Of a stretch of 64,000 nt of DNA, positions 29,671-53,432 are shown piece after piece; the first letter of the stretch is position 1, and each line of letters begins with the position of its first letter. The position numbers were made by a program, and so were the translations under genes. The notes beneath the pieces are model-generated. The model had not been told where the DNA came from and did not search any database. It was given only the letters and a program-made list of their open reading frames with translations. The DNA comes from Phyllobacteriaceae bacterium (GTDB taxonomy: Bacteria > Pseudomonadota > Alphaproteobacteria > Rhizobiales > Rhizobiaceae), in contig JANSXT010000010.1 of the NCBI GenBank assembly GCA_024742765.1, positions 98,712 to 162,711 of the forward strand. Reading direction: 5' to 3'.

Positions 29671-29865
29671 TGCGGCCCGATAAGTGCTGGTCGACGGCGC
29701 CGTGCCCGCCGGGTTTGAACAATCTGGGAGAAGAAGTTTCGGCCTGCCCGCGAGAAAATGCCCCAAACATGCCCCGGCGGCGGCTCACCGTTTTGGCCGC
29801 CACATGCATCGTGCTGATGAGTTCACGACCCGGACCAAACAACCACCAATATGGAGACATGACCC

Positions 29866-30477: not shown

Positions 30478-30586
30478 AGGCCGGGACCTACGCCCCAAGG
30501 TGGCCGCGATCGGGTGATTGCCTGCGGCCACCATTGGCGTGTCCGCCAACTGTGACACGCCAACAACATGTATGAGGGCAATATCG

Positions 30587-31300: not shown

Positions 31301-31313
31301 ACGCCGTCAGGCA

Positions 31314-32330: not shown

Positions 32331-32344
32331 GCTGCGACCGGGAT

Positions 32345-33544: not shown

Positions 33545-33662
33545 CTAGGGCGGTCCGTTCGTGACCGGACCCGCTTGGGCGCCGGAATGTCGTGGGTCGG
33601 CAAGGCGCGCACGGCGACCCGGCGCCGCCTCGGTCAGCCATGCGCAACGCCGGCCCATGGCA

Positions 33663-34484: not shown

Positions 34485-34534
34485 GTCAGTCTCCTGCCGT
34501 TTTCCCGGATCGCGTTCGCCAAAAAGGCACTTAA

Positions 34535-35920: not shown

Positions 35921-36030
35921 GACGGTTCCTCCAGGTGATGCCGGCGCCCCGATGGTGCCGGCCCGTCGATCATGGGCCGGTTCACGGCACCGGCGCGCAG
36001 GACCAAGATCCGGACATCAGGGCCAAGGCC

Positions 36031-36999: not shown

Positions 37000-38366
37000 T
37001 CGGCCGGCAGCCGATGGCCGACGTCCAGATCGCCCTTGTATCCGACATCCGGCTCGAACCCGGATTCGGTCATCAGCGCTTCGCGTCCGACGATCGACTC
37101 GCCAAGCACCAGCCGCACATCCTTCAAACGGCCACGCACCTGCCGGTCGGAATCGATCAGCGCGGTATCCGAGCCCACCGTGGCGAATTCTGTGCCGGTC
37201 ACCTCGGCGCTCTTCATCTCGCCCTGGACCACGACCGACGAGACGCCATAGAGCGGGCCATCGACGGTCGCCACTTCGAAATTGGTGTCGAAGTTCATGT
37301 CGTTTGGATATTTGACCGTTTCGAGCGCCATCTCCGAACCTTCGCCGAACGTGCCGGTGGAGGGCTTGAAGAAGCTCACGCGCAGCATGATCCGTCCGCC
37401 GAGCAGCTTGGATTCACCGACCATGGCGACGCGCGCGAGCTGCGACCGGACGCCCGGTCCCTCATGGTGCTTCTCATCGTCGAACAGCAGGATCTCGGTG
37501 CCCGCAGCAAGTCCGTGGTCGCCATGGATCTGCACCGTCTCGGTCTGGCCGTCGATTTCCAGGCTGACCTGGCCTTCCGCCGAACTCTGGATGATCAGCG
37601 ACGGATCGACCAGCATCGAAATGCAGGGGCCGAAGCTCTCGGCGAAGAACACGGTCGGCGTGATGCCGGTTGCCCGGTTCATGCGGTCGGCCGGATACCA
37701 GGCCTCCGGCAGGTTGACGCCGCGAACGACGTTCGGCGCTGGGATCACCGTGCCCGGCCCGTCGCCCAGCGGCGCGCCCAGAACCGGGGCGGTAAGCGGC
37801 TTCTTGTAGGGCGGAATGCCGTCGACCACGCCGTCAATGGCGATCACGTCGCGGTGCGCCAGCCGCATCGTGCTGGTCTCCAGGACCCCGAACCGGCGAA
37901 TGAAGAACTGGGCGGGAAAATTCTGCCCGGGCACGATCTGCCGCACATGGCCGGTGTTCGGCAGATAGGGGTTCGACAGCACCTGGATGCGGTCATTCAG
38001 CACATGGCTATAGCCCTTGATGCCGACTTCCGGCGCGCTGATCAGTTCCAGATCGAATTCGGCATAGCCGTTCTCGTCGACCCGGTGGTGAAACCCCTCC
38101 ATCGGCCATTTGTTGAGCTGCACGAAGCCCGAAAGGCTGATCGTTTCGCGCTTGCCGCTGTAATAATCATCGCCGAAGACGACGGTGGCGGCGGCCAGAA
38201 TGTGCGGGCGCAGCGGCTTGGGCTCGATGTTCAGGGATTCATAGGTTTCCCCGCCATGCGCCCCGACCAGCCCACCGCCATTTTCGCGGTTGTGCTCGTC
38301 ATAATTGGGCCGGCGTTCGCCATTGCCGTTTCCGTTGCCTTGGTTGCTATCGCTGGTATGGGACAT
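36996..38366 (-). CDS. Unidentified 456-aa protein coupled to PRMT-like methyltransferase
   Basis: I do not recognise this protein. The N-terminus is a low-complexity Asn/Gly/Glu/Arg segment (about 1-40), and the rest is predicted beta-rich and soluble, with sequence such as FGDDYYSGKRETISLSGFVQ, PGQNFPAQFFIRRFGVLE, TVFFAESFGPCISMLVDPS and NFEVATVDGPLYGVSSVVV. There is no signal peptide, membrane segment or obvious catalytic motif. It has a strong CGAGGAGAA Shine-Dalgarno and ATGA overlap with the methyltransferase. A binding or scaffold protein of the biosynthetic pathway is possible. Confidence 0.75.
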   Translation of the reverse strand: MSHTSDSNQGNGNGNGERRPNYDEHNRENGGGLVGAHGGETYESLNIEPKPLRPHILAAATVVFGDDYYSGKRETISLSGFVQLNKWPMEGFHHRVDENGYAEFDLELISAPEVGIKGYSHVLNDRIQVLSNPYLPNTGHVRQIVPGQNFPAQFFIRRFGVLETSTMRLAHRDVIAIDGVVDGIPPYKKPLTAPVLGAPLGDGPGTVIPAPNVVRGVNLPEAWYPADRMNRATGITPTVFFAESFGPCISMLVDPSLIIQSSAEGQVSLEIDGQTETVQIHGDHGLAAGTEILLFDDEKHHEGPGVRSQLARVAMVGESKLLGGRIMLRVSFFKPSTGTFGEGSEMALETVKYPNDMNFDTNFEVATVDGPLYGVSSVVVQGEMKSAEVTGTEFATVGSDTALIDSDRQVRGRLKDVRLVLGESIVGREALMTESGFEPDVGYKGDLDVGHRLPAE

Positions 38367-38459
38367 CGAATTTTCTCCTCGGTGCAGATAAGGGGCAGCG
38401 GTCGGGTCCGGACGAACGGGGACTGCGCCGCGCGGCGGCCGCTGCCATGAGCCGGACGG

Positions 38460-40241
38460 TCAATCCGGCGGGTCGAGCCACAAATTGGTGATGTCGAAGA
38501 ACTCGATCTGCGGCACATGGATCGCGTTCTTCACGCGCTTGCTGTGATAGCGGGATGTCATGGCCGCAAAGGCCAGCAGCGGCACGATCGGCACGTCGCG
38601 CATCACCGTCACGTCGATCTCGTGCCACAATTGCTCGGCGCGACTGGGGTCCTGTTCCTGCAGGGCCTCGTCGATCATGCGGTCGACATCGGGATTGCTG
38701 TAGCCGCCATAATTGGTCGTGCCGGGCTCGAAATTGGTCTGGAACAGCGGCTGGACGATGCAGCGTCCATTGTTGCCGAACCAGTCGGGCGTCCAGCCCG
38801 GTTCGGCAATGTCCCAGGCGCCGGCCCGCGCGCTGTCGGGATCGCCCAGCACCGAACCGTAATAGTCGGCCTGGCTGAAGGTCTCGAACTTCAGCTTGAT
38901 CCCGATCTCGGCAAGGTTTGCGGCGACCGACTCCATCACGTCGAGATGAAGGCGCGCCTCGCGCACGGCAGCCACCAGTTCGAACCCGTCGCCGAAGCCG
39001 GCTTCTTGCAGCAGTTGCTGGGCCTTGGCGCGGTCGCCGCGATCGCCGGGCGTCGGATAAAGGTTGAAATCCCGATGGCCCGTGCTGCCCGGCGGTATCG
39101 CCGAATGCAGCGGACGGTTGGGCACGCCCTGCATGATGTTCAGCACCTCGCTGATCGCAGTCTTGTCCACCGCATAGGCGATCGCCTGTCGCACCTTGAG
39201 GTTTTGCAGCGCGCCGCCCGCATTGGGGCTTTGCAGGTTGAAGACGAGATAGGGATTGAGCGTAAAGCCGGGATAGCTGCGCGGAAACTGCTCGCGCTCG
39301 GGCGCCGGCTTGGCCCAGGACACGACGGTGAAGGACCAGGCGAGATCGACCTCGCCGGCATCGATCCTGTCACGCAGCGCATCGGGCGCTTCGCGCGCCA
39401 CGGTGATCTCGATGCCGTCCAGATATTGATGCCGGATCGGATCGCTGTCCTGTTGCCAGGCCGGATTGCGCTCCAGCTTCAGTTCGGCGCGTACGTCCGG
39501 CGGCGCGGCGAACCTGTAGGGCCCGTTGGAGATGAAGTTGGCCCGCATCTCGTCGCTGTCGGGCAGATAGGCGTCATATTCGTGCGGCACGGCCGACGCA
39601 AAGCCCATGGCCAGGATGTTCAGGAAATCGTTGGCGGGTTGCTTGAGCCGGATGACGAGGGTCTTGTCGTCGGGCGTCTCCAGCCCGGAAATCATGTTGT
39701 CGTTCTGGAACTGCGCCAGTGCCGCAGCGGAAATGTCCGCCGTTTCGAACGCCTTTTCATAGGCGGTGCAATATTCGTCCATCCCCGCGATCGTGCTGGT
39801 GAAGTAGTGCCGGGCTCCGGCGCCGCAAACCGGGTTGGCCAGCCGCTTGAGCCCGCGCACGAAATCCGAAGCCACCACCTCGCGCGGCGGTTCGGTGTCC
39901 CAGAACACGCCGTCCCGCAGCCGGATCGTGTAGGTGAGGCCATCGGCGCTCAGCCCGCCATTGTCGATGGTGGGCACCTCGGCGGCGACATCGGGCGCCG
40001 GCGTGAAGCTCTCGAACGGGTCGGACAGGTCGTGCGATGCCGGATAGGCAAAGAGCTGGCGCGTCAGGGCGCGCAGGATCTGCCCCGACGTGGCGTAGTA
40101 GGCGCTGGACGTGTCCAGATGATCGGGCCCGCCGGGGCCCCGGAAGCGCAGGACGCCGCCGTAACGCGCCTCGCCGGCGCGGCCGAGCGGTCCCGGAACA
40201 TCCCTGGTTTCGATTGCGGCGGCTGCGGTGGTTCCGTGCAT
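38460..40241 (-). CDS. Leaderless family-5 solute-binding protein 2
   Basis: The 593-aa SBP_bac_5 protein is a clear paralogue of the one at 27880: SGQILRALTRQLFAYP, SADGLTYTIRLRDGVFWD, YPGFTLNPYLVFNLQSPN, VRQAIAYAVDKTAI and WDIAEPGWTPDWFGNNG. Its N-terminus (HGTTAAAAIETRDVPGPL) is not a signal peptide, so it should be cytosolic, and no cognate permease is encoded nearby. It is the first gene of the minus-strand accessory operon and is divergent from a SARP regulator that lacks a sensor domain, which suggests a sensing partnership. Confidence 0.82.
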   Translation of the reverse strand: MHGTTAAAAIETRDVPGPLGRAGEARYGGVLRFRGPGGPDHLDTSSAYYATSGQILRALTRQLFAYPASHDLSDPFESFTPAPDVAAEVPTIDNGGLSADGLTYTIRLRDGVFWDTEPPREVVASDFVRGLKRLANPVCGAGARHYFTSTIAGMDEYCTAYEKAFETADISAAALAQFQNDNMISGLETPDDKTLVIRLKQPANDFLNILAMGFASAVPHEYDAYLPDSDEMRANFISNGPYRFAAPPDVRAELKLERNPAWQQDSDPIRHQYLDGIEITVAREAPDALRDRIDAGEVDLAWSFTVVSWAKPAPEREQFPRSYPGFTLNPYLVFNLQSPNAGGALQNLKVRQAIAYAVDKTAISEVLNIMQGVPNRPLHSAIPPGSTGHRDFNLYPTPGDRGDRAKAQQLLQEAGFGDGFELVAAVREARLHLDVMESVAANLAEIGIKLKFETFSQADYYGSVLGDPDSARAGAWDIAEPGWTPDWFGNNGRCIVQPLFQTNFEPGTTNYGGYSNPDVDRMIDEALQEQDPSRAEQLWHEIDVTVMRDVPIVPLLAFAAMTSRYHSKRVKNAIHVPQIEFFDITNLWLDPPD

Positions 40242-40517
40242 CGCGCACCCCTCAGAACGTCAACTCGCATTGAGCGTCCATTATGAAAGGCGGTGTGTCG
40301 TGAAGCTTCTCCCATATTGCCCGCAAAGGCCGGCGAGCGCCCGCGAACAACTTCGGTCTTTGGATGGAGCGCCGGCCATCGCCTTGAAAAGCCTTGTTCA
40401 CAATGGCATTGCGGCAATTGTCATCACAATAGCACTTCACAGTGTATTTCTTGTCAATTGACTCCTTTTAATTTGAACCCTACTTTCACGTATCACCCTG
40501 AAATCGCGGAGGTTATG
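40242..40517. promoter_or_regulatory. AT-rich divergent promoter region of accessory operon and SARP gene
   Basis: This 276-base region is much richer in A+T than the rest of the window, especially 40410-40500. It contains the hexamer TTGTCA twice, at 40418 and 40451, exactly 33 bases (three helical turns) apart, and a perfect palindrome GTCAATTGAC at 40453-40462. SARP regulators bind direct repeats in phase with the helix, so autoregulation is conceivable. GGAGG at 40508-40512 serves the SARP start. Confidence 0.45.
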
Positions 40518-41291
40518 ATGGTAGATATCAGAACGCTCGGCGGCTTTCATGTTCGTCATAAGGGGCTATATTCTTCTTCAAAAATTATTTCTTGCTGTAG
40601 CAAGATTCTTGTCTACCTTTTGATTAACAATAACATTCCGCAAAGAAGAGAGAAGCTGGCGGACATATTTTATTCTGGCCTTGACATGACTCACGCGCTC
40701 AACGCGCTCAGCACAAATGTCTGGCGCATCAAGCGGTGGATCAAGGACCATCTCGCCGACAGTTCCATCGAGATGATCGCAAACCGGCGTGACGTTATCA
40801 TGATCGGGTCGGACACGGGCTTCATGGATGTCAGCCGCTTTGAGGCGGGCCTCGCGCGCTGCAGCTTTCAGGACAACAATGTCCTGAGGTCCGACCAGCG
40901 CGCGGCGGTGCGGACCGCGCTCGCCGAATATCAGGGCCCGTTCATGGACGGGGAAAGCGACGAGTGGATCCTCTACGAGCGCGAACGCCTGCACTGTCTT
41001 TATGTTCAGGGCCTCAACGAGATGATGTCGAGCTTCGCCGCCGAGGAGAAGTTCGAGGACGCGCTCGATTATGGCCGCCGCATCCTGCGCATCGACCCGC
41101 TGCGCGAATATGTGCATCGCGAGATGATACGCTGCTACGCCGCCAGCGGTCAGCGCGCGCTGGCGCTGCGCCAGTTCCAGACCTGCCGCACACTCCTGAA
41201 GGATGAGTGCAGCATCGAGCCGCTGCCCGAAACGATCAGCCTGATGAAGGCGGTCCGGAACGGCGCGCCGGTCATGGACGCCAACGTCTGA
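40518..41291 (+). CDS. SARP-type transcriptional activator (winged helix plus BTAD)
   Basis: The 257-aa protein has an OmpR-like winged helix (about 1-95; RREKLADIFYSG then NALSTNVWRIKRWI) and a BTAD tetratricopeptide domain (about 100-245; VSRFEAGLARC, EYQGPFMDGESDEWI, LDYGRRILRIDPLREYVHREMIRCYA and LRQFQTCRTLLKDECSIEP). SARPs activate antibiotic clusters, chiefly in actinomycetes, so one here supports cluster-specific control. ATG 40518 is at 5 bases from GGAGG, better than ATG 40515. The first third of the gene has lower GC than its neighbours. Confidence 0.88.
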   Translation: MVDIRTLGGFHVRHKGLYSSSKIISCCSKILVYLLINNNIPQRREKLADIFYSGLDMTHALNALSTNVWRIKRWIKDHLADSSIEMIANRRDVIMIGSDTGFMDVSRFEAGLARCSFQDNNVLRSDQRAAVRTALAEYQGPFMDGESDEWILYERERLHCLYVQGLNEMMSSFAAEEKFEDALDYGRRILRIDPLREYVHREMIRCYAASGQRALALRQFQTCRTLLKDECSIEPLPETISLMKAVRNGAPVMDANV

Positions 41292-42065
41292 CATCACCGT
41301 CCGAACGGCCGCGGCCGGCGGCGCATTGACCGATCATCATCGGTCATCGACCGGACTTTTTCCCCATCGCAACGCGCCGTCGAGCGCCCCGTCTGCGAGG
41401 TGCGGGAACGCCCGGTCCCGTCATTGCTGTCGGCGATCGCGCCCGTGCCGGCGCCATCGGTCTGCAGGGCAATCTATAAGAAAATTGATGGCCCGGAAAT
41501 CCCGCCCGCGCCCCGAAAACCGGTTGCCCGTCCCGCGCTCCGGGCGATCCCGCGCGCCCCTAGCGTGCGACACAACGCGTTTCAGCACGCGGCAGTAACC
41601 TTCTGATTTCAAACAGGCTTTTTGAGATGGATCGCCAATGGTGGGTCTTTGGTGCTGGTTCAGTGCGATCAGTGTGAGAACATCGTGCTGACAGATCGAC
41701 ACTTGATCGCGCTTTGTATGCGCTTCCAGTGCTGTCCATGACATCAACCGGAGCCCATCCGGCAGGATCGCTGTGAGAGCCGCCGGACCCCACACTGCTA
41801 GCCTCTGACAAACAAGATGTGCGGCAGTGATCGTGGAGGACCGGCAGTCGTGTTTGCGTGCGTTGCGCCAGAGTGTGCCGCCCGATTTCCGGGGCCAGGT
41901 CGGCGCAATGGCCGCCGTCTCGCCTGCAGGTTTGGGCGACCCGCGACCACCGGCCGGCATTCATCACATCTGCGTCCGATGATGGCGCTTCGAACCGTGC
42001 CCGCGCGGCGGGCGCACGGAACGGCATCATTGTCCGCACAACGCACAACCGTGTGAGGGAGCGTC
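41292..42065. other. 774-base gene-free region ahead of the enediyne core operon
   Basis: I find no convincing gene on either strand. Open frames here (for example 41421-41960 minus) have no recognisable domain, ribosome binding site or coding-like composition. Apart from the hairpin near 41328, the region should hold the promoter and possibly a long leader of the core operon; GAGGGAGCG precedes the E3 start. A decayed gene cannot be excluded. Confidence 0.6.
41328..41361 (+). terminator. Possible intrinsic terminator after SARP gene
   Basis: GACCGAT-CATC-ATCGGTC (7-bp stem) overlaps a second possible stem CGGTC-ATC-GACCG, followed closely by five T residues (41357-41361). It lies 36 bases after the SARP stop codon. 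The stems are short, so strength is uncertain. Confidence 0.45.
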
Positions 42066-43172
42066 ATGTCGGCGACCGGTCAGGCCCATCAGGCATCCAG
42101 CGGCAGGACCGGTCGCGCCGCGCTGGAAAACTGGCGCGGGTCGCTGTCGGTCAGGCTGGCCGGGCTGTCCGACGACGAAGCCTCGTTCTCAAAGCGCGGC
42201 TTTGCCGTTTCCGACCCACAGCGCCGCGACCGGCTCGAAGGGGTCGGCCGCGCCTTCATCGCCGGCTACAATCTGGCGCTGGTCCGGGCGAACCTGCCCG
42301 CATCGGTGCCCTTGCAGCCGCTCACCGCCGAACTGGAGACGATCGCGCCAGCCTTGCGCGGCTTTGCCCATGAAGGCGCCGCCATGGGGCTGGGCATCTC
42401 CGACGCGCTGCCCTGGGCGCGCAATGGCAATCTGGCCCGGTTTCTGGGCACCGCCGGAGACCGGCACGCCTATCTGATCCATGTCGGCGCGGGCTGGGCC
42501 ATGGCCCGCCTGCCCTGGCGTCGCCGGGCGATCCTACGCGTGCTCGATCCGCTGCTGGCTCCGCTGGCCATCGACGGATGGGGCTTTCATGACATCTATT
42601 TTTCGCCCGCCCGCCTCGGTGCCGGCGCCAGGGGTGGCGGCCGCGACCACCGGCGCGCCTTCGACCAGGGTGCCGGTCGCGCGCTGTGGTTTGTCGCCGG
42701 CGGCGACATCGATCGCGCGCTGGCGCTGATCACCGCCCAGCGGCCCGATCGCCGCTGCGATCTTCTGTCGGGGCTCGCGCTGGCGATGACCTACACCGCG
42801 CTGGCGGAGCCCGGCGATGTCGCAAAGCTCGCCGGCCATGCGGATCAGACGATGCCGGACGGCCGTGCCGCCGTCGCCCAGGGCGCGGCCTTTGCGCTTG
42901 AGGCCCGCGCGCTGGCCGGTCTCCGGCTCCCGCAGGGCGACGCCATCTGTTCGGCGCTGTGCGACCGGGCGCCCGACGCCGTTCTTGGCATCGTGCGCGC
43001 CCACCGGCCGGCAACGTCGGACGTGGTCGCGATCGAGGCCGAGACCGGGACCGCCGCATACGAGGTCTGGCGTCAGCGGGTCCAGGCAGCACTCACCAAG
43101 CCCACTCTTGCCAAGCCCGCCACTGCCGGGTCGGCGCAAGGCTCAATCAGCGCACGGGAGCCAAGTTCATGA
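42066..43172 (+). CDS. Enediyne biosynthesis protein E3 (DUF1702/UnbL family)
   Basis: The 368-aa protein matches the DUF1702 family found almost solely next to enediyne polyketide synthases. Visible features are SKRGFAVSDPQRRDRLEGVGRAFIAGYN near the N-terminus (key core RLEGVGRAFIAGYN), FAHEGAAMGLGISD, FVHVGAGWAMARLPW-like HVGAGWAMARLPWRRR, LLAPLAIDGWGFHDIYF and a Gly/Arg-rich RRAFDQGAGRALWFVAGGD. Its biochemical role is not established; it is one of the conserved warhead genes. It opens the five-gene core operon and overlaps E4 by ATGA. Confidence 0.92.
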   Translation: MSATGQAHQASSGRTGRAALENWRGSLSVRLAGLSDDEASFSKRGFAVSDPQRRDRLEGVGRAFIAGYNLALVRANLPASVPLQPLTAELETIAPALRGFAHEGAAMGLGISDALPWARNGNLARFLGTAGDRHAYLIHVGAGWAMARLPWRRRAILRVLDPLLAPLAIDGWGFHDIYFSPARLGAGARGGGRDHRRAFDQGAGRALWFVAGGDIDRALALITAQRPDRRCDLLSGLALAMTYTALAEPGDVAKLAGHADQTMPDGRAAVAQGAAFALEARALAGLRLPQGDAICSALCDRAPDAVLGIVRAHRPATSDVVAIEAETGTAAYEVWRQRVQAALTKPTLAKPATAGSAQGSISAREPSS

Positions 43173-45103
43173 TCATGACCCCAGCCATGACAAGCCTTGC
43201 CCGCCGCGCCGGCGGACTTGTCGCGATCATCCCGGTGGTCGCTTTTGCCACCGCCGCCCATTCGCCGGCACCGGACCAAACCGCGCTTGAAGAACTGGCA
43301 GCGCCTTTCGCATTCGAGGCGTCGGCCATGCCGGCGGCGGGCAACCTAAACGAGCGCACCGGGCGCGATGTCCATCCCGCGCTCTCTCACATCGCCGGCT
43401 GGATTTCGTCCGTCGGCGCCTCCGTCGCCCTCGCCGATCTGGACGGAGACGGCCTGCCCAACGATTATTGTCTGGTCGATCCGCGCACCGACACGGTCAC
43501 CGTCGCCCCGGTCTCGGCATCCGCGCAGACGCGGTTCGAACCGTTTGTGCTCGCAACGCCCACCGAGGGCTTCGATCCGGCCACGCTGGCGCCGATGGGC
43601 TGCCTGCCCGCCGACGTCACTGGCGACGGCCGCATGGATCTCGTGGTCTATTATTGGGGTCGCGGCCCGGTCGTCTTCGAGGCCCGGTCCGGCCCACCGG
43701 CCGCGCAATCATACCGGCTTCAGACCCTGACCGACGAGACGGTGCCCTGGTTCACCAACGCGGCCATCTTCGCCGACATTGATGGCGATGGCCATGGCGA
43801 CCTGCTGTTCGGCAATTATTTCGCCGACGGCAGCGGCATTCTCGATCAAAGCGGCCGGATGCCGGCCAACATGCAGCATTCCATGTCGCGCGCCTATAAT
43901 GGCGGCACCAATCGCCTCTTTCTCAACGCCGGCGCAGCGTCAGGAGAAACCCGGTTCGAGGACCACAGCGCCGCTCTGTCGGCGACAATGGCAAATGGCT
44001 GGACCCTGGCTCTGGGCGCCGCCGACCTGAACGGCGATCTCCTGCCGGAAATCTACGTCGCCAACGATTTCGGCCCCGATCGCCTGTTGTTGAACAGTTC
44101 GCGGCCCGGTCAGGTGGAGCTGTCACAGGTCAAGGGCCGGCGCGGTTTCACCGACAGCCGCTCCACCGTTCTCGGTCGCGACAGTTTCAAGGGCATGGGC
44201 GTCGACTTCGCCGACATCGATGGCGATGGCCGGCTGGACATTTATGTCAGCAACATCGCCGAGGAATATGCGCTGATGGAGAACCATTTCCTGTTTCTCC
44301 ACACCGGTGACGATGCGGCGTGGCAGCGCGGCCGCGCACCCTACCGCAACGCCAGCGGCCCGCTCGGCCTTGCCCGCAGCGCGTGGAGCTGGGACGTCAA
44401 GCTGGCCGATTTCGACAATGACGGCCGCGTCGAGGCCGTCCAGACGACCGGCTTCGTCGAAGGAGCGACCGATCGCTGGCCCGAGCTGCATGAACTGGCC
44501 ATGGCCAATGACGAATTGCTGCGCCACGCCGGTGTCTGGCCCGTCTTCAAGGATGGCGATGACCTGTCCGGCGATCATCATGACCGCTTCTTCGTGTCCG
44601 ACGGTGACGGAACCTATCGCGACATCGCGCCGCTGATCGGGCTCGGCGGCGCTTCGGTGTCGCGGGCGATCGCCACCGCCGATGTCGATGGCGACGGCGA
44701 TCTCGACATGGCCATCGCCCGCCAGTGGCAGGCATCGACCTTCTACGAAAACACCGCAGTGCAGGCCGGCCGGTCGCTGAACCTCGATCTGCGGTTGCAA
44801 TCGCCGCAGGGCGCTCTGCGCCCGGCGGTCGGAGCCGTCGCGCGCGCCGTCCTGCCGGACGGGCACCCGCTGACCGGTTTCGCCGACGGCGGCAACGGCC
44901 ATAGCGGGCGGCGCTCACACCACATTCATTTCGGCCTTGGCGCGCTTGCCGATCGCGACCGGATCGAGGTGACCGTGTCGTGGCGCGAGGACGGCACGCG
45001 CCATGACCGGCGCTATTTTCTCGCGCCCGGCGCGCACGAAATCGTCTTGAACGAGCAGGCGAGCGCACGGGCCACAACCCGCTCGCCCGACACTTTCCGG
45101 TAA
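43169..45103 (+). CDS. Enediyne biosynthesis protein E4 (UnbV-like VCBS-repeat protein, exported)
   Basis: The 644-aa precursor starts with a signal peptide (hydrophobic core VAIIPVVAFATA, about residues 18-31). The mature protein is a predicted beta-propeller of FG-GAP/VCBS repeats with some eight Asp-rich calcium-binding loops (ADLDGDG, DVTGDGRMD, ADIDGDGHGD, ADLNGD, ADIDGDGRLD, ADFDNDGRVE, VSDGDG, ADVDGDGDLD), ending in the ASPIC/UnbV-type C-terminal domain (GRRSHHIHFGLG). It is the counterpart of E4 in enediyne cassettes. Periplasmic location implies that part of the pathway or product handling is outside the cytosol. ATG 43169 with GGGAG upstream. Confidence 0.92.
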   Translation: MIMTPAMTSLARRAGGLVAIIPVVAFATAAHSPAPDQTALEELAAPFAFEASAMPAAGNLNERTGRDVHPALSHIAGWISSVGASVALADLDGDGLPNDYCLVDPRTDTVTVAPVSASAQTRFEPFVLATPTEGFDPATLAPMGCLPADVTGDGRMDLVVYYWGRGPVVFEARSGPPAAQSYRLQTLTDETVPWFTNAAIFADIDGDGHGDLLFGNYFADGSGILDQSGRMPANMQHSMSRAYNGGTNRLFLNAGAASGETRFEDHSAALSATMANGWTLALGAADLNGDLLPEIYVANDFGPDRLLLNSSRPGQVELSQVKGRRGFTDSRSTVLGRDSFKGMGVDFADIDGDGRLDIYVSNIAEEYALMENHFLFLHTGDDAAWQRGRAPYRNASGPLGLARSAWSWDVKLADFDNDGRVEAVQTTGFVEGATDRWPELHELAMANDELLRHAGVWPVFKDGDDLSGDHHDRFFVSDGDGTYRDIAPLIGLGGASVSRAIATADVDGDGDLDMAIARQWQASTFYENTAVQAGRSLNLDLRLQSPQGALRPAVGAVARAVLPDGHPLTGFADGGNGHSGRRSHHIHFGLGALADRDRIEVTVSWREDGTRHDRRYFLAPGAHEIVLNEQASARATTRSPDTFR

Positions 45104-45125
45104 CGGCTTTGGCGGGAGGAACCAG

Positions 45126-46133
45126 ATGACGCTTCTGAGCGACGACACGACCCTGACAGCCCGCACCGGGCGCGCGGTGCCCGACTGGCGGCTGACGATC
45201 GCCGAGCGCTGGTACATCGACAAGCGGCTCAAGGGGCTCGCCCGGTTTGCATTCGCGATCACGTTTCTGAACGTTCTGGGCCATCTGTGGCTGGGGTTCG
45301 AGCAATCCTGGATCACACCCTTTGTGGCCCTGGGCGCCGCCTATTTCACCGAGTTTGCGGCCGAGACCAGCCAGTCGCTCGCCGAGGGCCGACGGCCGCG
45401 CTACATCGGCAGGCCGGGTGCGGTCGTGGCCTTTTTCCTGTCGGCCCATATCAGCGGCCTTGCCGTCGGCATGTTGCTGTTTGCCGCCGAGCAGCTTTGG
45501 CTGGTCGCGTTCGCCTCATCGGTCGCGGTGGCCTCCAAATGGCTGATCCGCGTTCCGGTGGCCATGCCGGACGGGCGAACCGCCTCGCGCCATTTCCTCA
45601 ATCCCTCCAATTTCGGCATCACGGTCACGCTGCTGCTCTATCCGAGCGTCGGCATCGCGCCGCCCTACCAGTTCTCCGAGAACACCAGCGGCGCGCTCGA
45701 CTGGCTGTTGCCGCTGGTCGTCATCACCACGGGCAGCCTGTTGAACACCAAACTGACCGGGCGCATGACGCTGATCGGCGCCTGGGTCGCCGCGTTCGCG
45801 GCACAGGCCGTCATCCGCGCGCTCATCCATGACACGCCGATCGTCGCCGGCCTTGCGCCGATGACCGGCTTCGCCTTCGTTCTGTTCTCCTTCTACATGA
45901 TCACCGACCCGGCGACCTCACCCGTCGGGCGCTGGAACCAGGTGCTCTTCGCGGTCGCCGTGGCCGCCGGCTATGCGCTGTTCATGGAACTGCATGTCGT
46001 CTTCGGCCTGTTCTACGCGCTGACGTTGGTGACCGCGCTGCGCGGCGCCGGCCTTTATGTGCGCCATTACATGCGATCGCGTGCGGCGCCCGCCGTTCCG
46101 CTTGCCCGCGTGCCGGCCGAGGGACCAAAATGA
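45126..46133 (+). CDS. Enediyne biosynthesis protein E5 (UnbU-like membrane protein)
   Basis: The 335-aa polytopic inner-membrane protein has about eight hydrophobic segments. Two motifs, NPSNFG (159-164) and FYMITDPATSP (256-266), resemble the RnfD/NqrB family of flavin-carrying redox membrane subunits, in which the Asp-Pro-x-Ser/Thr region lies by the covalent FMN site. E5 is one of the conserved warhead genes with unknown function. The start follows GGGAGGAACC, and the stop overlaps the PKS start by ATGA. Confidence 0.9.
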   Translation: MTLLSDDTTLTARTGRAVPDWRLTIAERWYIDKRLKGLARFAFAITFLNVLGHLWLGFEQSWITPFVALGAAYFTEFAAETSQSLAEGRRPRYIGRPGAVVAFFLSAHISGLAVGMLLFAAEQLWLVAFASSVAVASKWLIRVPVAMPDGRTASRHFLNPSNFGITVTLLLYPSVGIAPPYQFSENTSGALDWLLPLVVITTGSLLNTKLTGRMTLIGAWVAAFAAQAVIRALIHDTPIVAGLAPMTGFAFVLFSFYMITDPATSPVGRWNQVLFAVAVAAGYALFMELHVVFGLFYALTLVTALRGAGLYVRHYMRSRAAPAVPLARVPAEGPK

Positions 46134-49100
46134 GCGCCGACACGTCCATCGCCATTGTGTCGATGGCATGCCGGTTTCCCGATGCGGCGTCGCCGGAGGC
46201 GCTTTGGCGCAACGTGCTCGATGGCCGCCGTTCGTTCCGTGCCATCCCGCCCGAGCGCCTGGCACTGGCCGACTATGACGCGGCAACGGTCGGCGGAGCG
46301 CTGTCGATCACGCCGGTTCTGGCCGGCCTTTTGACCGACTGGCACTTCGACCGGTCGCGTTTCCGCGTCTCCCGATCGGGGTTCGACGCCGCCGATCTGG
46401 CGCACTGGCTGGCGCTCGACACCGCCGAGGTCGCGCTTGAACGGGTCGGCGGTGCAGGCCGGTTGGGTTCCCTGAAGACCGCCGTCATCGTCGGCAACAC
46501 GCTGACCGGCGAATTCACGCGGACGGAACAGATACCGCTGCGCCTGCCCTATCTTCTGTCCAAGGCCCGCGCGGCCATGGACGGCGATGACCTGCCGCAG
46601 GACGTCATCGAGACAATGCTGGGGCGCCTGCGCGACCACATCCTCGCCGATTTCCCGACGCCGAACGAGGAAACCCTGGCCGGCGGGCTTGCCAACACCA
46701 TCGCCGGCAGGATCGCCAACCATTTCGACCTGCATGGCGGCGCCTGGACGGTCGACGGCGCGTGTGCCTCCTCGCTGCTTGCCGTGGGCGATGCGTGTAC
46801 GCGCCTTGCCGAAGGCTCGATCGATGTCGCGATTGCCGGCGGCGTCGATCTGAGCCTCGACCCGTTCGAACTGGTCGGCTTTTCGCGCAACGGCGCCCTC
46901 GCCGCCGACCAGATGCGCGTCTTCGACCGCCGGTCCGCCGGCTTCTGGCCCGGCGAAGGCTGTGGCATCGTGATCCTGGCCAACGCCAAAGCCGTTGCCC
47001 AACTCGATGCCGAACCGCTGGCCTATCTGTCCGGCTGGGGCGTGTCGACGGACGGCGCCGGCGGCCTGACCCGACCGACCGAGACGGGCCAGGGCGCGGC
47101 CCTGTGTCAGGCCTATAGCCGCGCCGGCGTTAATCCGGCCGATTTGGGCTATGTCGAAGCGCATGGCACCGGCACCGCCGTTGGCGATCCGGTCGAGATT
47201 CGCGCGCTTGCCGATCTGGTCGGAACCCCGGGCCGGCCGGTGCCGGTCGGCTCGATCAAGGCCAATATCGGCCACACCAAGGCCGCGGCCGGCATTGCCG
47301 GCCTGATCAAGGCCGTGAGCGCCGTCCGGGACGGCATCGTGCCGCCGCATGTGAGCTGCGACGACCCGCACCCGGTCTTCGCCGAGACCGGCGCGCGGCT
47401 GGCGCCGTCGCTGGAGCCGGGGTCCTGGCGGGCAGGCAGGCGCCGCCATGCGGGTGTCAGCGGCTTCGGCTTTGGCGGCGTCAACGCCCATATGGTGGTC
47501 TCCGACGCCGGGCCCGCTCCGACGGGTCGCGCGCGCCCCGCCCCGCCGACGCCGCAGGATGCCGAACTGTTCCTGTTCTCGGCCGCCACCCAGTCGGCGC
47601 TTTCCGACACGCTGTCCGGGCTGCGCGACGCGGCGGAGACGCTGTCATGGAGTGCGATGGCCGATGCCGCCGCCCATTGCGCGGCGCAGTGCGATGTTTC
47701 CGCGCCGTTCCGCGCCGCAATTCTCGCCGCGCGTCCGGACGAACTGGTGCGCAAGCTCGGCGCGGCGATCGGGCGTCTCGCCGGCGGCGAGCTCGCCGAC
47801 GAACCCGATTTCGATCTCGGCATCGCGCGAACCCGAAAACCGCCGCGCATCGGATTTCTGTTTCCGGGTCAGGCGGCGCCGGTCCGCACCGGGGGCGGCA
47901 TCTGGCGGCGCCGCTTCGCGGCCAGCGGCACCTATCTTGCCGAACTGCCGCCAATGGCGACCGACAATGACGTCGCCACAGACATCGCCCAGCCGGCCAT
48001 CATGGCCGCCTCATGCGCCGCCCTTGACCAATTGTCGCGGATCGGCCTGCGCGCCGAAGTGGCGGTTGGCCACAGCCTTGGCGAGATCGCCGCCCTTTGC
48101 TGGGCCGGCGCGCTGTCGGGCACCGACGCCGTGCGCCTCGCGCGCGCCCGCGGCCGGGCGATGGCCGACGCCGGCACGCGCGGCGGATCCATGGCGCGGA
48201 TCGCCGAAGGCGCAGAGCGGGCGGCGATGATCGCGGCCCGGTTCGATCTGACCGTCGCCTGCGAGAACGCCGACGACGAGACGGTGATCGCCGGCGACGC
48301 CGATGCGATCGGGCGCTGCGTCGACCATGTGCGCGACGCCGGAACCGATGCCGGCACGCTGGCCGTCTCGCACGCCTTTCACACCGCCGACATGGAGCCG
48401 GCAGCGGCCGGACTTGCCGATGTTCTGAACGCGAGCCGCTTTTCGGCCCTCAATGCACCGGTCATCTCGACGGTGACCGGTGACCGGCTCGACCCGGCCC
48501 ATGACCTCAGGGCCCTGCTGCTCGATCAACTCATTTCGCCGGTGCGCTTTGCCGGTGCGCTGGCGTTGGCCGCGCGCCACTGCGATGTCTTCATCGAGGT
48601 CGGACCGGGCGCCGGCCTGACACGGCTTGCGCGCAAGGCGGGACACAGCGCCGTCTCCGTCGACGCGCACGGCCCCTCGATCAAGGGACTGTTGGAAACC
48701 GTGGCCTTTTACTTCCTGTCGGGGGCAGCGATCGCGCCGGACGCGCTTTTCGAGGACCGGCGCCTGCGCCCCTTCGATCCGGCCTACCGGCCGATCCTTT
48801 TGGCCAACCCGTGCGGCCGGGCCACCATGGATGCGCCCGTTCCGGTCAAAGCGCCTGCCACTGTGCCCGACGCGCCGGGCACTGCCGACACAATGCCCTT
48901 GCCGCCATCCGATCCCGACCGGCCGATGCTGGAAACGGTTCTGGGTCTTGTCGCAACCGAACTGGCGCTGCCGCCCGAAAGCCTGTCCCCGGACCTGCGC
49001 TTTGCCGACGATCTGCACCTCAATTCGCTGGCGGTCGGACGCATCGTCGCCGAGGTGGCCCGCCAGTCCGGGCTGGCGACGCCCGCCGCCTTGAGCGATT

Positions 49101-51862
49101 TTGCCAATGCAAGGCTCTGTGATCTGGCCGATGCCCTTGGCGAACTGGAAACACTCGGCAAGACCGGGCCGGCTGAGCGCGACCATGTCGAAGGTGTCGC
49201 GCCATGGGTCAGGCGGTTCGGGTTCGAATGGAAGACGACATCGCCGCCGCGCGGCAACCAGACGATCGCATGGCGAACTGTGGACGCCGAAGGGGCCGGT
49301 CGGATCGGCGCGATCGCCGATGGCGACCCCGCTGGTGCGCTGGTCCGCATCGGCGAGTGGCGCACGCCCGGCGCCCTCCAGCGCATCTGGAACACGGTGC
49401 GCGACATCCACGGGGCCGGCCTGCGACATGTCGCGCTGGTCCATGATGGCGCGCCCGTGTCGGCCTTCGCCCGGTCGCTTTATGAAGACGGCGTGTTCGA
49501 CACGATCGCCGTCGTCGAAACGGCTGATGCGCAAGCGGCGGGCGCGCTGCTCGACCGGGTCGGGCCGGGTTTTGGCGAATGGCGCATCGCCGCCAACGGA
49601 ACGCTTCTGGCGCCGGTCTTCAGGCCCTTTGCGCCACCCGGCGATCGCGCGCCGATCCCTTGGCGAGGCGACGATGTGGTGGCCGTCACCGGCGGGGCGC
49701 GCGGCATCGGCGCCGAATGCGCGCTCAGGCTGGCGGAAAAAACCGGCGTCCGGCTGCTGCTTCTGGGCCGCAGCCCCGCCGGCCACGACGAAGTCGCCGC
49801 CACGCTGGCCCGATCGCGGGCGATGGGGATCGACGCCATCTATCGCAGCGTCGATGTGACCGAACCGGACGAGGTCGTCGCCGCGTTCGCCGATGCGGCC
49901 GGCCGCTTCGCCCATCCCGTCAGCGGCATCATGCATGCGGCCGGGCTCAACCATCCCCAGCGGTTCGCCGATATCGCGCAGGACACGCTGCGTGCCACGC
50001 TGGACGTCAAGGTCGCCGGCCTTCAGGCATTGCTCGGTGCGGCCGACCTTGGCGAACTCAAGGCGGTGATCGGGTTCGGCTCGATCATCGGACGCCTCGG
50101 TCTGGCGGGCGAAACGCATTATGCGCTGGCCAACGCCGCCCAAACCGCGCTTCTCGCTGAACTCGCATCGGCAAACCCCGACATCGCCGTCATGGCGCCC
50201 GAATGGTCGGTCTGGGCCGGCGCGGGCATGGGCCAGCGGCTCGGCACGTTGGAACGGCTGGCCGAAGAGGGTGTCGAGGCGCTGTCACTCGACACCGCGC
50301 TTGACCTGTTCGAAGAGCTTGCAACGGCCGGCACCCTGCCCGCCGATGGCCCTTGCGTGATCACCAGCCGCTTCGGCCCGCCCCGAACGGTGGACCTGGA
50401 CCGGCCGACGCTGCCCTTGCGCCGGTTCCTGGAAACCGTGCGCCTGCACTATCCGGGGATCGAACTGGTCGTCGACACCCGGATCTCGACGGGCAACGAT
50501 CCCTATCTCCTCGATCACATGATCGACGGACAGACGGTTCTGCCCGGCGTGATGATGCTCGAAGCCATGGCAACGGCCGCGCATGCCCTCACCGCGACCG
50601 CACAGGGGAACGGCAAAGGCCCGACTATCGGGTTCGAAGCCGTCCGGTTCGACCGGCCCGTCGTCCTGCCCGACCATGGCGACCTGAGCGTCCGTGTCGC
50701 GGCGCTTCGGCGCGACGACGGAACCATATCTTGCGTGCTCAAAACCTCTGCCGATGGTTTCGCTGCGGTCCACGCCAGCGCCGACATCCGCTTTTCCGGC
50801 CTTGAAGACGCGCGGGTCACCTTCGATCCCGCGCGGCCGGAGCACCCGCCGGTCACGGCCGACGGGTTCTACGGATCGCTTTTCTTCAATGGCGGTCGGT
50901 TCGAGACGGTCCACTCCTATCGCCGCCTGACCGCCTTCGAGATCACGGCCGACCTCGACGCGGGCGCATCCGCGCCCTGGTTCGGCAGTTTCCTGCCGCA
51001 GTCGCTAATGCTGGGCGATCCGGGCTGCCGCGATGGCGGCTTGCACGCGCTGCAGGCTGCCGTGCCGCAGCGCCGCGTGGTTCCCGCATCGGTGGACCAT
51101 ATCGCAATCCACGATCCGGATACGCCGCGCTGCTCGGTCAATGCCAAACAAGTGCGCGCGACCGAGACGACCTTCGTCTTCGACATCGAATTTTGCGCCG
51201 AAGACGGCCGCTGCCTCGAAGTCTGGCGCGGCGCCAGCTTTAAGGCGATCGCAGCCATCGACGATGCCGCGCTTTCCGATGCGCTGTTCGTCCCGTGGCT
51301 GGAACGCGAACTGGCCTTTGCGACCGGACGGAGCGATGTCCGCGTCGCACGCGCCCATGGTCCCGACCGCGACGTGCGGCGCATGACGGCGGCGACCGCA
51401 TGCGGCTTGCCGACGATCCTGCACAGGTCAGACGGCCGGCCGCTCATTGTCGATGGCCCCGATGGCTACGGCCTGTCCGTCTCGCATCATGGTGACACGA
51501 CGCTGGTCGTCGCCGCGCACGGAGCGGTGGGCTGCGACCTGGAGGGTTCGCCGGTCGAGCCGAACGGATCGCCCGATGGCGACATCCGGCATTGGTGCAT
51601 CCGCGAGGCCCTGCGCAAATGCGGGGTCGCCGCACCACCCCGGCTTGCCGGCGGATCGGAAGCCGGCGATGACGCCAATAAGGCCCGCCTTGCGGACGTC
51701 GACACGATTGCCGGCCATGCGGTGATCGCCCGCCGCTGGCGCGACGGCACGGCCGTCGCCGTCGCGCTCGGTCCGGACATCAGCAATCAACCGCATGCAC
51801 CTGCCAAACAGGCGGAAGTCGTGCCCTCGGCCGCCGCCGGCCGCGCGGTGGCCGCGCCATGA
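46130..51862 (+). CDS. Iterative enediyne polyketide synthase PKSE (KS-AT-ACP-KR-DH-PPTase)
   Basis: The 1910-aa megasynthase has exactly the enediyne PKS layout. KS (about 1-465): Cys212 in GACASS, His345 in EAHGTGT, His382 in NIGHTK. AT (about 575-860): Ser649 in GHSLG and His751 in HAFHT. ACP (about 935-1010): Ser966 in DDLHLNSL. KR (about 1180-1400): TGGARGIG, Ser1318, Tyr1331. DH (about 1440-1700): His1463 in HMIDGQTVLPG. C-terminal integrated PPTase (about 1720-1870): Asp1803/Glu1805 in GCDLE and REALRK with Glu1826/Lys1830. All active-site residues are present, so it should make the linear polyene precursor with the downstream thioesterase and can pantetheinylate its own ACP. No ER domain, as expected. 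Confidence 0.96.
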   Translation: MSADTSIAIVSMACRFPDAASPEALWRNVLDGRRSFRAIPPERLALADYDAATVGGALSITPVLAGLLTDWHFDRSRFRVSRSGFDAADLAHWLALDTAEVALERVGGAGRLGSLKTAVIVGNTLTGEFTRTEQIPLRLPYLLSKARAAMDGDDLPQDVIETMLGRLRDHILADFPTPNEETLAGGLANTIAGRIANHFDLHGGAWTVDGACASSLLAVGDACTRLAEGSIDVAIAGGVDLSLDPFELVGFSRNGALAADQMRVFDRRSAGFWPGEGCGIVILANAKAVAQLDAEPLAYLSGWGVSTDGAGGLTRPTETGQGAALCQAYSRAGVNPADLGYVEAHGTGTAVGDPVEIRALADLVGTPGRPVPVGSIKANIGHTKAAAGIAGLIKAVSAVRDGIVPPHVSCDDPHPVFAETGARLAPSLEPGSWRAGRRRHAGVSGFGFGGVNAHMVVSDAGPAPTGRARPAPPTPQDAELFLFSAATQSALSDTLSGLRDAAETLSWSAMADAAAHCAAQCDVSAPFRAAILAARPDELVRKLGAAIGRLAGGELADEPDFDLGIARTRKPPRIGFLFPGQAAPVRTGGGIWRRRFAASGTYLAELPPMATDNDVATDIAQPAIMAASCAALDQLSRIGLRAEVAVGHSLGEIAALCWAGALSGTDAVRLARARGRAMADAGTRGGSMARIAEGAERAAMIAARFDLTVACENADDETVIAGDADAIGRCVDHVRDAGTDAGTLAVSHAFHTADMEPAAAGLADVLNASRFSALNAPVISTVTGDRLDPAHDLRALLLDQLISPVRFAGALALAARHCDVFIEVGPGAGLTRLARKAGHSAVSVDAHGPSIKGLLETVAFYFLSGAAIAPDALFEDRRLRPFDPAYRPILLANPCGRATMDAPVPVKAPATVPDAPGTADTMPLPPSDPDRPMLETVLGLVATELALPPESLSPDLRFADDLHLNSLAVGRIVAEVARQSGLATPAALSDFANARLCDLADALGELETLGKTGPAERDHVEGVAPWVRRFGFEWKTTSPPRGNQTIAWRTVDAEGAGRIGAIADGDPAGALVRIGEWRTPGALQRIWNTVRDIHGAGLRHVALVHDGAPVSAFARSLYEDGVFDTIAVVETADAQAAGALLDRVGPGFGEWRIAANGTLLAPVFRPFAPPGDRAPIPWRGDDVVAVTGGARGIGAECALRLAEKTGVRLLLLGRSPAGHDEVAATLARSRAMGIDAIYRSVDVTEPDEVVAAFADAAGRFAHPVSGIMHAAGLNHPQRFADIAQDTLRATLDVKVAGLQALLGAADLGELKAVIGFGSIIGRLGLAGETHYALANAAQTALLAELASANPDIAVMAPEWSVWAGAGMGQRLGTLERLAEEGVEALSLDTALDLFEELATAGTLPADGPCVITSRFGPPRTVDLDRPTLPLRRFLETVRLHYPGIELVVDTRISTGNDPYLLDHMIDGQTVLPGVMMLEAMATAAHALTATAQGNGKGPTIGFEAVRFDRPVVLPDHGDLSVRVAALRRDDGTISCVLKTSADGFAAVHASADIRFSGLEDARVTFDPARPEHPPVTADGFYGSLFFNGGRFETVHSYRRLTAFEITADLDAGASAPWFGSFLPQSLMLGDPGCRDGGLHALQAAVPQRRVVPASVDHIAIHDPDTPRCSVNAKQVRATETTFVFDIEFCAEDGRCLEVWRGASFKAIAAIDDAALSDALFVPWLERELAFATGRSDVRVARAHGPDRDVRRMTAATACGLPTILHRSDGRPLIVDGPDGYGLSVSHHGDTTLVVAAHGAVGCDLEGSPVEPNGSPDGDIRHWCIREALRKCGVAAPPRLAGGSEAGDDANKARLADVDTIAGHAVIARRWRDGTAVAVALGPDISNQPHAPAKQAEVVPSAAAGRAVAAP

Positions 51863-51875
51863 AGGAGCCCACGTC

Positions 51876-52391
51876 ATGAACCATCATGCTCCACCGGCCG
51901 ATCTGCGCTCGCCGCGCGATGCGCGTCCCGCTTTCCTCCACCGCCACACCGTCACGTTCGAGGAAACCAATCTGGTCGGCAATGTCTACTATGCGCGCCA
52001 TGTCTCCTGGCAGGGCCGCTGCCGCGAAATGTTCCTGCGCGAACATGCACCCCAAATTCTCGACGAACTGCGCCGCGATCTGCGTCTCGTCACGCTGCGG
52101 GTCGCCTGCGACTATTTCGAGGAGTTTCTCGCCTTCGACGATGTCGAGATCGAAATGCGCCTTGCCCATCAGGAACAGCACCGGATCGGACTGGACTTCG
52201 AATATTGGCTGGTCCGCGAGGGCGGCCCCCGGCGGCTCGCCGCATCGGGCTTTCAGGAAACCGGATGCCTGCGGGTCGGCAAGAATGGCGCCAACCCGGT
52301 CAGGCCGCCCGACGCGCTTCTCGATGCCTTGAACCGGTTTCGCCCGGTGCGGCCGGTCGCCGGGATAGCGAGCGCCGCCGGCGCAAAGTGA
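51876..52391 (+). CDS. Enediyne thioesterase E10 (hot-dog fold)
   Basis: The 171-aa protein matches the SgcE10/CalE7 thioesterases that release the polyene from PKSE. The diagnostic segment ETNLVGNVYYARHVSWQG and RCREMFLREHAP occupies residues 30-59. Asn32 and Arg50 have the same 18-residue spacing as the catalytic Asn/Arg I recall for CalE7. ATG 51876 follows GAAGGAG, 13 bases after the PKS stop, completing the E3-E4-E5-E-E10 order. Confidence 0.94.
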   Translation: MNHHAPPADLRSPRDARPAFLHRHTVTFEETNLVGNVYYARHVSWQGRCREMFLREHAPQILDELRRDLRLVTLRVACDYFEEFLAFDDVEIEMRLAHQEQHRIGLDFEYWLVREGGPRRLAASGFQETGCLRVGKNGANPVRPPDALLDALNRFRPVRPVAGIASAAGAK

Positions 52392-52413
52392 ACACAGGTG
52401 GAGGAGAATGATG

Positions 52414-53250
52414 ATGCTGGAAACCGCACTTGATGGAACCGCGGCCCGGACCGCCCGCAACGGCGCCAAGCCGGCCGGGCCCAAATGCCCGAAGACATCG
52501 GTCGCGCAGGTCGTCCGGCACATCAACGCCAACCTCAACCGGAAACACACGCTGGACGAATTCGCCGACATTGCCGGATGCAGCATCTGGCATTTCGACC
52601 GCGTGTTTCACCGCGTCACCAATCTGTCGCCGATGAATTTTCTGTCGGCCTCGCGCATCGAGGCGGCAAAGCGCCTTCTGGTGACCTCCGACACGCGGAT
52701 CATCGATATCTGCTACGAGGTCGGCTACAACAGCCTCGGCAGTTTCGGCAAAAGGTTCACCAAGATGGTTGGCCTGTCGCCCCGCCAGGTGCGCGCGGCG
52801 GCGGCGGATTTCGACCCGCAGGCGTTTCGGGCGCTGTTCCGGAATGCCAGCGACTGGCCCGCCGGCAGCCACGGCGTTGAGGTGACGGTCACCGCGCCGG
52901 ACCAGACCCATGACGACTTCCTCACATTCGTGGGACTGTTTCCGGCCAATGTGCCCACCCTTGCACCGGCGGCCTGCGGCCTGCGCGAAGGTCTCGGCCC
53001 GGTCAGGATGCGCATGCCTCCGGCCGGCCGCTACAGCATCTTCGCGCTCGCCATTCCCCGGCACGCCGACGCCGAGGACATGATTTTGCAGGACTGCACG
53101 TTGCGCGGCACAGGCGGCAAGGTGTCGGTCTCCGCCGACGCCAGGCAGATGTCGTTGACCGTGGCCCTGCACGAACCGAGCCTTCTGGGACCGCCGCTGC
53201 TGCCGATCCTGCCGCTGATGCTGCAGCGCAAGGCGGCAGGCATGGCCTGA
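52414..53250 (+). CDS. AraC-family transcriptional regulator with C-terminal ligand domain
   Basis: The 278-aa protein has its two helix-turn-helix motifs at the N-terminus (about 30-130: LDEFADIAGCSIWHFDRVFHRV summarised by IAGCSIWHFDRVFH, and IIDICYEVGYNSLGSFGKRF) with the SPRQVR end, followed by a separate C-terminal domain of about 140 residues resembling effector-binding domains. ATG 52414 lies 7 bases from GAGGAG; two ATGs directly upstream are too close. Same strand as the thioesterase and 22 bases away, so probably part of the core operon and its regulator. Confidence 0.88.
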   Translation: MLETALDGTAARTARNGAKPAGPKCPKTSVAQVVRHINANLNRKHTLDEFADIAGCSIWHFDRVFHRVTNLSPMNFLSASRIEAAKRLLVTSDTRIIDICYEVGYNSLGSFGKRFTKMVGLSPRQVRAAAADFDPQAFRALFRNASDWPAGSHGVEVTVTAPDQTHDDFLTFVGLFPANVPTLAPAACGLREGLGPVRMRMPPAGRYSIFALAIPRHADAEDMILQDCTLRGTGGKVSVSADARQMSLTVALHEPSLLGPPLLPILPLMLQRKAAGMA

Positions 53251-53432
53251 GCACGGATCAAGGCCGGTCAGAGAGGCCGCACCAGTCCGGCCGGGGAAAC
53301 GGGGAGAATGTCGGAAACGCCGCGCTCAACCAGCCGCGACCGATCCGTGACGGCGTCCAACGGACCTGTCCCGCAAGCAAGCAAGCCGGACATGAGGCGG
53401 CCAAACCGAACCGGCGACCGTTGGCGTGCTCC

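Follow-up and report, generated by a model that had tools for sequence, protein, structure and literature searches.

Enediynes serve as the warheads of antibody drugs. Up to 2023 they had been reported solely from Actinobacteria and ascidian extracts, and enediyne KS domains were described in Proteobacteria and other phyla (PMC10308959). The enediyne polyketide synthase (PKS) cassette is defined by the adjacent genes E3, E4, E5, PKS and E10 (PMC5181780), homologs of which are present in Methyloprofundus (PMC8788690). With regard to the size of the enediyne ring, E2 is the marker of nine-membered clusters and R3 that of ten-membered ones (PMC5181780). TnmR2 and TnmR3 are ABC1/UbiB kinases, the latter of which affects production (PMC9464397). 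CalU16, the self-sacrifice protein of calicheamicin, has been described in relation to self-resistance (PMC8488855, PMC11069151), and overexpression of its homolog TnmB went along with heightened resistance to tiancimycin (PMC11069151).

The stretch analysed here (the window; 64,000 nucleotides of contig JANSXT010000010.1, assembly GCA_024742765.1, from a Phyllobacteriaceae bacterium) holds such a cassette as the right part of a proposed enediyne gene cluster, an island of about 26.4 kb with 18 genes as called (27007..53432). The island appears to consist of an alphaproteobacterial five-gene cassette joined to a block of genes shared with Actinomadura, and we put at about even the chance that it makes a ten-membered enediyne, expected to be new and to cut DNA, and protects its host from it. 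The cassette in an alphaproteobacterium, on which a preliminary description of this DNA had centred, is real but not in itself new, since it has already been reported in Proteobacteria and is annotated in other alphaproteobacteria, with homologs named in Roseibium, Sinorhizobium, Rhizobium, Bradyrhizobium and others. What is new is its place within a larger bounded island, beside candidate self-resistance genes and genes found repeatedly in the enediyne clusters of actinomycetes. The preliminary description was limited to the cassette and thus too small in scope, missing the genes at 27-41 kb; these accessory and candidate resistance genes, more than the cassette, give reason to expect an enediyne and not a bare polyene. 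Many proteobacterial cassettes are known by sequence alone, and a small, sharply bounded island with such genes makes proteobacterial enediyne production directly testable in one strain.

The cassette and its polyketide synthase

The cassette genes follow one another on the plus strand as E3 (42066..43172), E4 (43169..45103), E5 (45126..46133), the PKS (46130..51862) and E10 (51876..52391), all present and adjacent as in the published definition (PMC5181780) and in the order first described, which is borne out by Pfam, by the names of E5 homologs and by the CalE7 type of E10. The start of E4 is most likely at 43169, a GTG at 42959 merely opening the longest frame, and that of E10 lies at about 51876, shifted from the start of its frame. 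There are 4-base overlaps between E3 and E4 and between E5 and the PKS, and gaps of 22 bases between E4 and E5 and of about 13 bases between the PKS and E10. The two gaps make the cassette a tight gene row with only partial overlap, and the earlier term "single overlapping operon" holds to that extent.

E3 matches DUF1702 in Pfam (246.6 bits against a cut-off of 25); its AlphaFold2 model is all-helical (pLDDT 92), and no clear relative of the model was found among solved structures. E4 carries FG-GAP repeats and UnbV_ASPIC by Pfam. E5, distantly RnfD-like, has no Pfam match over the cut-off (best NQR2_RnfD_RnfE, 15.5 bits against 27.7), and several of its homologs are listed as "enediyne biosynthesis protein UnbU" or "E5". 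The profile check suggested for E3-E5 succeeded for E3 and E4 with Pfam, but not for E5, and none of the three matched an NCBIfam model. The nearest solved structures of the E10 thioesterase are CalE7 (E 2.2e-39), an ACP-polyene thioesterase and DynE7 (range 2.2e-39 to 3.4e-36). E4 has an N-terminal hydrophobic segment, which is present in all 78 rows compared (L003-L081) except two truncated ones; this near-universal segment suggests that E4 and E5 may act jointly at the membrane.

The PKS (1910 aa) has the domain order KS-AT-ACP-KR-DH-PPTase expected of an enediyne PKS. Pfam recognises KS, AT, ACP, KR and DH; the PPTase domain has no Pfam hit and is recognised by motif alone. The motifs DGACASS, GHSLGE, DLHLNSL, GGARGIG, YALANA, DHMIDGQ, CDLE and WCIREALRK were all found, confirming that domains and active sites are intact. 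Residues 477-894, the AT region, match DynE8 (E 1.2e-50); the solved structures that match best overall belong to modular PKSs and cover the KS-AT part. No NCBIfam model exceeded its cut-off among the 25 of 107 matches listed, and the polyunsaturated fatty acid (PUFA) synthase model PfaA (TIGR02813) gave 395.8 bits, below its cut-off of 1010.1.

In a tree built with a quick method, which agrees with the picture of an earlier one, the PKS of the window lies in a clade of 21 rows (support 99), made up of itself, 12 loci (11 of them named alphaproteobacteria) and 8 proteins from the PKS homolog search. A separate clade (support 100) is formed by 14 actinomycete PKSs, and a further one (support 100) by four PKSs, two of them from E2-bearing clusters. 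These trees contain no PUFA or heterocyst-glycolipid synthase rows, and the branch of their sole outgroup was too long for it to be usable. Four loci were left out of the clade sets: L015 and L009, whose PKS is split or cut, L057 (Streptomonospora), which groups with an acidobacterium, and L064, filed as a Rhizobium metagenome-assembled genome, which groups with a cyanobacterium. The PKS on the L064 contig (Rhizobium sp. LE19-388.1D) is nearly identical to the one in the cyanobacterium Microseira wollei, and the contig is probably a binning error. Taken together, the E3 profile, the CalE7-type E10, the DynE8 match and the PKS trees support the original assignment of the cassette to the enediyne type, with the potential for an uncharacterised enediyne or an enediyne-derived polyene.

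The island, its accessory block and its host

The bounds of the island come from blastn comparisons with two sister species, in which the window aligns with G827 at 22001-27006 (82%) and 53441-57924 (87%), and with G829 at 53433-57848 (85%). The alignments end at both island edges, and none of the island genes was found in four 20-kb stretches from three sister genomes.

The accessory block contains a run of genes on the minus strand that leads from 40241 down to 32345. It begins with an SBP_bac_5 solute-binding protein (SBP b; 38460..40241; Pfam; 38-64% identity to Actinomadura proteins), followed by a DUF6004 protein (36996..38366; Pfam, 624 bits; 63-67% to four Actinomadura proteins), the methyltransferase MT1 (36031..36999; Pfam; 54-57% to four Actinomadura proteins) and a TnmR2/R3-like atypical kinase of the ABC1/UbiB family (34535..35920; Pfam, 4.4e-51; 58-65% to Actinomadura proteins). 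The run ends with the class I methyltransferase MT2 (33663..34484; Pfam Methyltransf_25, 2.8e-15), which is 39.5% and 39.7% identical to proteins in the same place in the Actinomadura genomes G807 and G801, and with a pyridoxal phosphate (PLP) enzyme (32345..33544), by Pfam of the aminotransferase class V or cysteine desulfurase-like type, with PvdN and C-S lyase relatives. The latter is 41-46% identical to three Actinomadura proteins, and the lysine of its SGRKWQFGP motif is conserved. Beyond this run, the plus strand encodes a second SBP_bac_5 protein (SBP a; 27880..29670; Pfam; 32-46% to the Actinomadura SBPs that match SBP b), two SRPBCC proteins and a DUF899 protein (30572..31300; Pfam, 1.4e-49; 40-43% to four Actinomadura proteins). 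Additionally, a 350-aa protein on the plus strand (31278..32330) could be assigned to no family, with no Pfam match over the cut-off, no credible PDB match and no homolog in the fetched clusters.

Homologs of DUF6004, MT1, ABC1, DUF899 and the SBPs occur in all four Actinomadura enediyne genomes, those of the PLP enzyme in three and those of MT2 in two, often in a kept order. G807 and G801 share the order DUF6004-MT1-ABC1-MT2-DUF899, with the SBP reversed, and in G806 the DUF6004, MT1, ABC1, DUF899, PLP and SBP genes are consecutive. MT1 scores 319-355 bits in the four Actinomadura genomes and at most 94 bits in the other 45 of the 49 cassette genomes. DUF6004 (PF19467) was found in five of these 49, the four Actinomadura genomes and one acidobacterium, and in one of 385 genomes of the class, the source genome itself, so that this family, of which no mention was found in the literature searched, becomes tied to enediyne clusters. 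The class count, like that for the order given below, comes from an evenly drawn genome sample, and L017 lay outside the DUF6004 search of cassette genomes. Weaker SBP relatives also lie 24-31 kb away from two Streptomyces cassettes, the second one of CB03234 and that of S. ficellus.

Among the named loci compared, the core genes are nearest to alphaproteobacteria and the block is nearest to Actinomadura: E5 is 77% identical to Roseibium against 52% to the best actinomycete, and E10 65% to alphaproteobacteria against 45%. The simplest reading of these likenesses would be horizontal assembly of an alphaproteobacterial core with an Actinomadura-like block, although the mismatch may possibly stem from differential loss instead. 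A bolder form of this reading, which we hold only tentatively, is that a compact 18-gene, cross-phylum island makes a true ten-membered enediyne, the first known outside actinomycetes and ascidian extracts. The Actinomadura-type module (DUF6004, DUF899, two methyltransferases, UbiB-like kinase, PLP enzyme and signal-less SBPs) would then form a portable unit, so far undescribed, by which the warhead is finished and safely handled.

Both SRPBCC proteins are CalU16-like self-resistance candidates and a lead in that direction. Protein b (29866..30477, plus strand) has CalU16 as its best PDB matches (2.8e-8 and 3.5e-8, among 16 listed); protein a (27024..27614, plus strand) belongs to AHSA1 by Pfam, and both are encoded inside an enediyne-type island, which is the context expected of CalU16/CalC proteins. 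No obvious signal peptide is seen by eye in the two SBPs, which could bind the product in the cytoplasm.

Two regulatory genes adjoin the cassette on the plus strand, one encoding a SARP-like regulator (40293..41291; Pfam BTAD, 6.4e-24) and the other an AraC-type regulator (52408..53250; Pfam HTH_18, 1.2e-21). They were compared with the loci of alphaproteobacterial type, which number 15 of the 80 cassette loci, spread over many phyla, that a species-genome scan with two short peptide patterns recovered (L003-L015, L058 and L064, with L009 and L013 lacking a class name). A SARP-like gene lies upstream of E3 in 11 of these 15 and in none of 17 actinomycete loci; an AraC gene is found within at most 10 kb of flanking DNA in 7 of the 15 and in 0 of the 17, and AraC relatives lie farther out in actinomycete clusters. 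In the related loci L008, L009 and L013, the SARP-like gene is directly preceded by the genes of an RND efflux pump and its adaptor (Pfam on L008 only), a possible exporter in that subgroup.

That the host is an alphaproteobacterium with bhc genes nearby, as first described, was confirmed. The bhcA and bhcB genes of the beta-hydroxyaspartate cycle (54221-57782) exceed the NCBIfam cut-offs; bhcA is 86-87% identical to that of Ruegeria and kin in plasmid records, and 91-92% identical in two of four other genomes of the genus. All six plasmid records matching a 1555-aa protein at 1944-6611 are alphaproteobacterial (Sinorhizobium, Shinella, Sphingomonas). Homolog searches, with about 8000 candidates scored in each and 120 listed, returned 531 matches for E3, 7802 for the PKS and 2777 for E5, and the matches listed include Rhizobium, Roseibium, Sinorhizobium, Bradyrhizobium and Mesorhizobium. 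In evenly drawn samples, DUF1702 exceeds its cut-off in one of 397 genomes from the order (another has a match below it), one of 385 of the class and one of five of the genus, each time the source genome. In the literature searched, which comprised open-licence papers, alphaproteobacterial enediynes appear little studied.

Ring size, proposed pathway and rival explanations

A ring of ten members is predicted because the ABC1 gene belongs to the tiancimycin-type clade and no E2 was found, following the published E2/R3 rule. The island holds an R3-type gene, the ABC1/UbiB kinase, and a search of the whole genome gave a single DUF1702 gene (PF08012), namely E3; that E2 is itself a DUF1702 protein is read from the joint E2/E3 network of PMC5181780. 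In the ABC1 tree, the nearest neighbours of the island kinase are the Actinomadura block kinases (98/96), followed by the pair from the tiancimycin region (98/97, 95/91); two long branches meet in the alphaproteobacterial part of this tree, which is unsure. Another ABC1/UbiB gene lies elsewhere in the genome (contig C21). An ABC1 gene was seen in none of nine alphaproteobacterial-type loci for which up to 10 kb on each side of E5 was seen, and in five of six for which 50-80 kb was seen.

Among 22 actinomycete cassette regions (fetched stretches of 11-152 kb; L040, on a short contig, was left out of the ABC1 counts), two have two DUF1702 genes and both are without ABC1, while Stnan796, G807:C6 and G801:C226 lack ABC1 and have at most one DUF1702 gene. 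Of the 16 actinomycete genomes searched, 6 contain two or three E5 loci (G793, G794, G797, G800, G801, G807). The ABC1 gene alone is not decisive, being near most actinomycete cassettes and, in G797:C112, near a PKS that groups with the E2-bearing, nine-membered-type PKSs; the ten-membered ring that the evidence points to is a prediction with one known exception in our own data.

From the protein families and general enediyne chemistry, the following pathway may be proposed. The PKS, having primed its own ACP, would assemble malonyl units into a linear polyene. E10 would release this chain, and E3 together with E4 and E5, which probably act at the membrane, would convert it to a conjugated diyne. 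The core may then be completed by MT1, MT2 and the PLP enzyme, of which the last is a possible source of sulfur for a trigger, and the TnmR2/R3-like kinase may help to handle or regulate the hydrophobic intermediate. The SRPBCC proteins would act as CalU16-like self-sacrifice proteins and the signal-less SBPs as cytoplasmic binders, with expression presumably under the control of the SARP-like and AraC genes.

Less likely, but still a serious rival, is that the ring is never closed and that the product of the island is linear only, either a heptaene or a diyne-polyene, which perhaps serves as a pigment or membrane antioxidant. By Pfam, no P450, flavin oxygenase or glycosyltransferase was found among the 18 island genes, five-gene cassettes are spread over many phyla, and the five genes reportedly suffice for a linear diyne; set against this are the tiancimycin-type clade of the ABC1 kinase, the CalU16-like proteins in the island and the linkage to a block of Actinomadura clusters, one of which holds deoxysugar, glycosyltransferase and P450 genes. 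A nine-membered enediyne is far less probable: the PKS of the window falls in neither actinomycete clade and G797:C112 combines ABC1 with a nine-membered-type PKS, but the genome has a single DUF1702 gene and no E2, the two regions with two DUF1702 genes are those without ABC1, and no apoprotein gene was recognised among the 18 genes, although no model search for one was made. Equally improbable is that the 27-41 kb block is a separate pathway and a chance neighbour of the cassette. Six of its genes lie on the opposite strand, its closest relatives are from Actinomadura and those of the core from alphaproteobacteria, and in G801 and G806, two of the four Actinomadura genomes, the block is on a short contig apart from the cassette. 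In G802, however, block genes flank the cassette on one contig of 151.8 kb, with DUF6004, MT1 and ABC1 about 14-19 kb ahead of it and DUF899, the PLP enzyme and two SBPs about 21-31 kb beyond it, and in G807 a single contig carries both, the block starting 44 kb ahead of E3. Furthermore, the acidobacterium has its weaker DUF6004 copies at a distance of about 12-22 kb from the end of the cassette, and in the window block and cassette share the same two edges with the sister species.

The missing tailoring genes and the split contigs weigh against a ten-membered enediyne with self-protection too, as do several further observations. The island is small (18 genes, about 26 kb), and published actinomycete clusters often span 80-120 kb (PMC5181780). 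The edge blocks of G827 are on different contigs, so that no empty site was seen. A search of the 15 other cassette genomes of alphaproteobacterial type gave no DUF6004, and the closest core relatives (up to 72% PKS identity among the matches listed) are known as proteins only. ABC1 is present in 17 of the 22 actinomycete regions. Finally, the SRPBCC family is common, and the best PDB match of protein a is the uncharacterised 2k5g (5e-16), with CalU16 second (3.4e-10), for which reason its CalU16-like role is a lead only.

Comparison with described systems

CalU16 shares the AHSA1/SRPBCC family with the two island proteins, being the best PDB match of one and the second of the other, but these matches are weak and partial and the likeness is one of sequence. 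The tiancimycin cluster of Streptomyces sp. CB03234, for which G793:C12 was taken by gene content and not by accession, resembles the island in its E3/E4/E5/E/E10 genes, in AraC-type genes, in two ABC1/UbiB kinases of the same clade as the island's one and in the CalU16-like TnmB (PMC11069151). It differs in that its PKS belongs to another clade, that no DUF6004, MT1 or DUF899 homolog was found in the 80 kb fetched and that its P450 TnmL and MFS pump TnmT1 (PMC11069151) have no Pfam counterpart in the island.

The cassettes of Roseibium litorale, Rhizobium sophoriradicis and Labrenzia THAF82 are of the same core type (E5 66-77%, PKS 40-45%) and likewise have SARP-like and AraC genes. However, alphaproteobacterial cassette genomes have no DUF6004 and no close MT1, and the DNA fetched from them shows no SBP relative and an ABC1 gene that is either more distant or absent. 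The enediyne clusters of Actinomadura mexicana, A. xylanilytica, A. geliboluensis and A. harenae differ from the island in a second ABC1 near E3 and, in A. mexicana, in additional sugar, glycosyltransferase, P450, radical SAM and TldD/PmbA genes. Their core genes are 36-41% (E3), 44-46% (E4), 48-49% (E5), 39-43% (PKS) and 43-45% (E10) identical to those of the island, and the block genes that these clusters share with the island are 38-67% identical.

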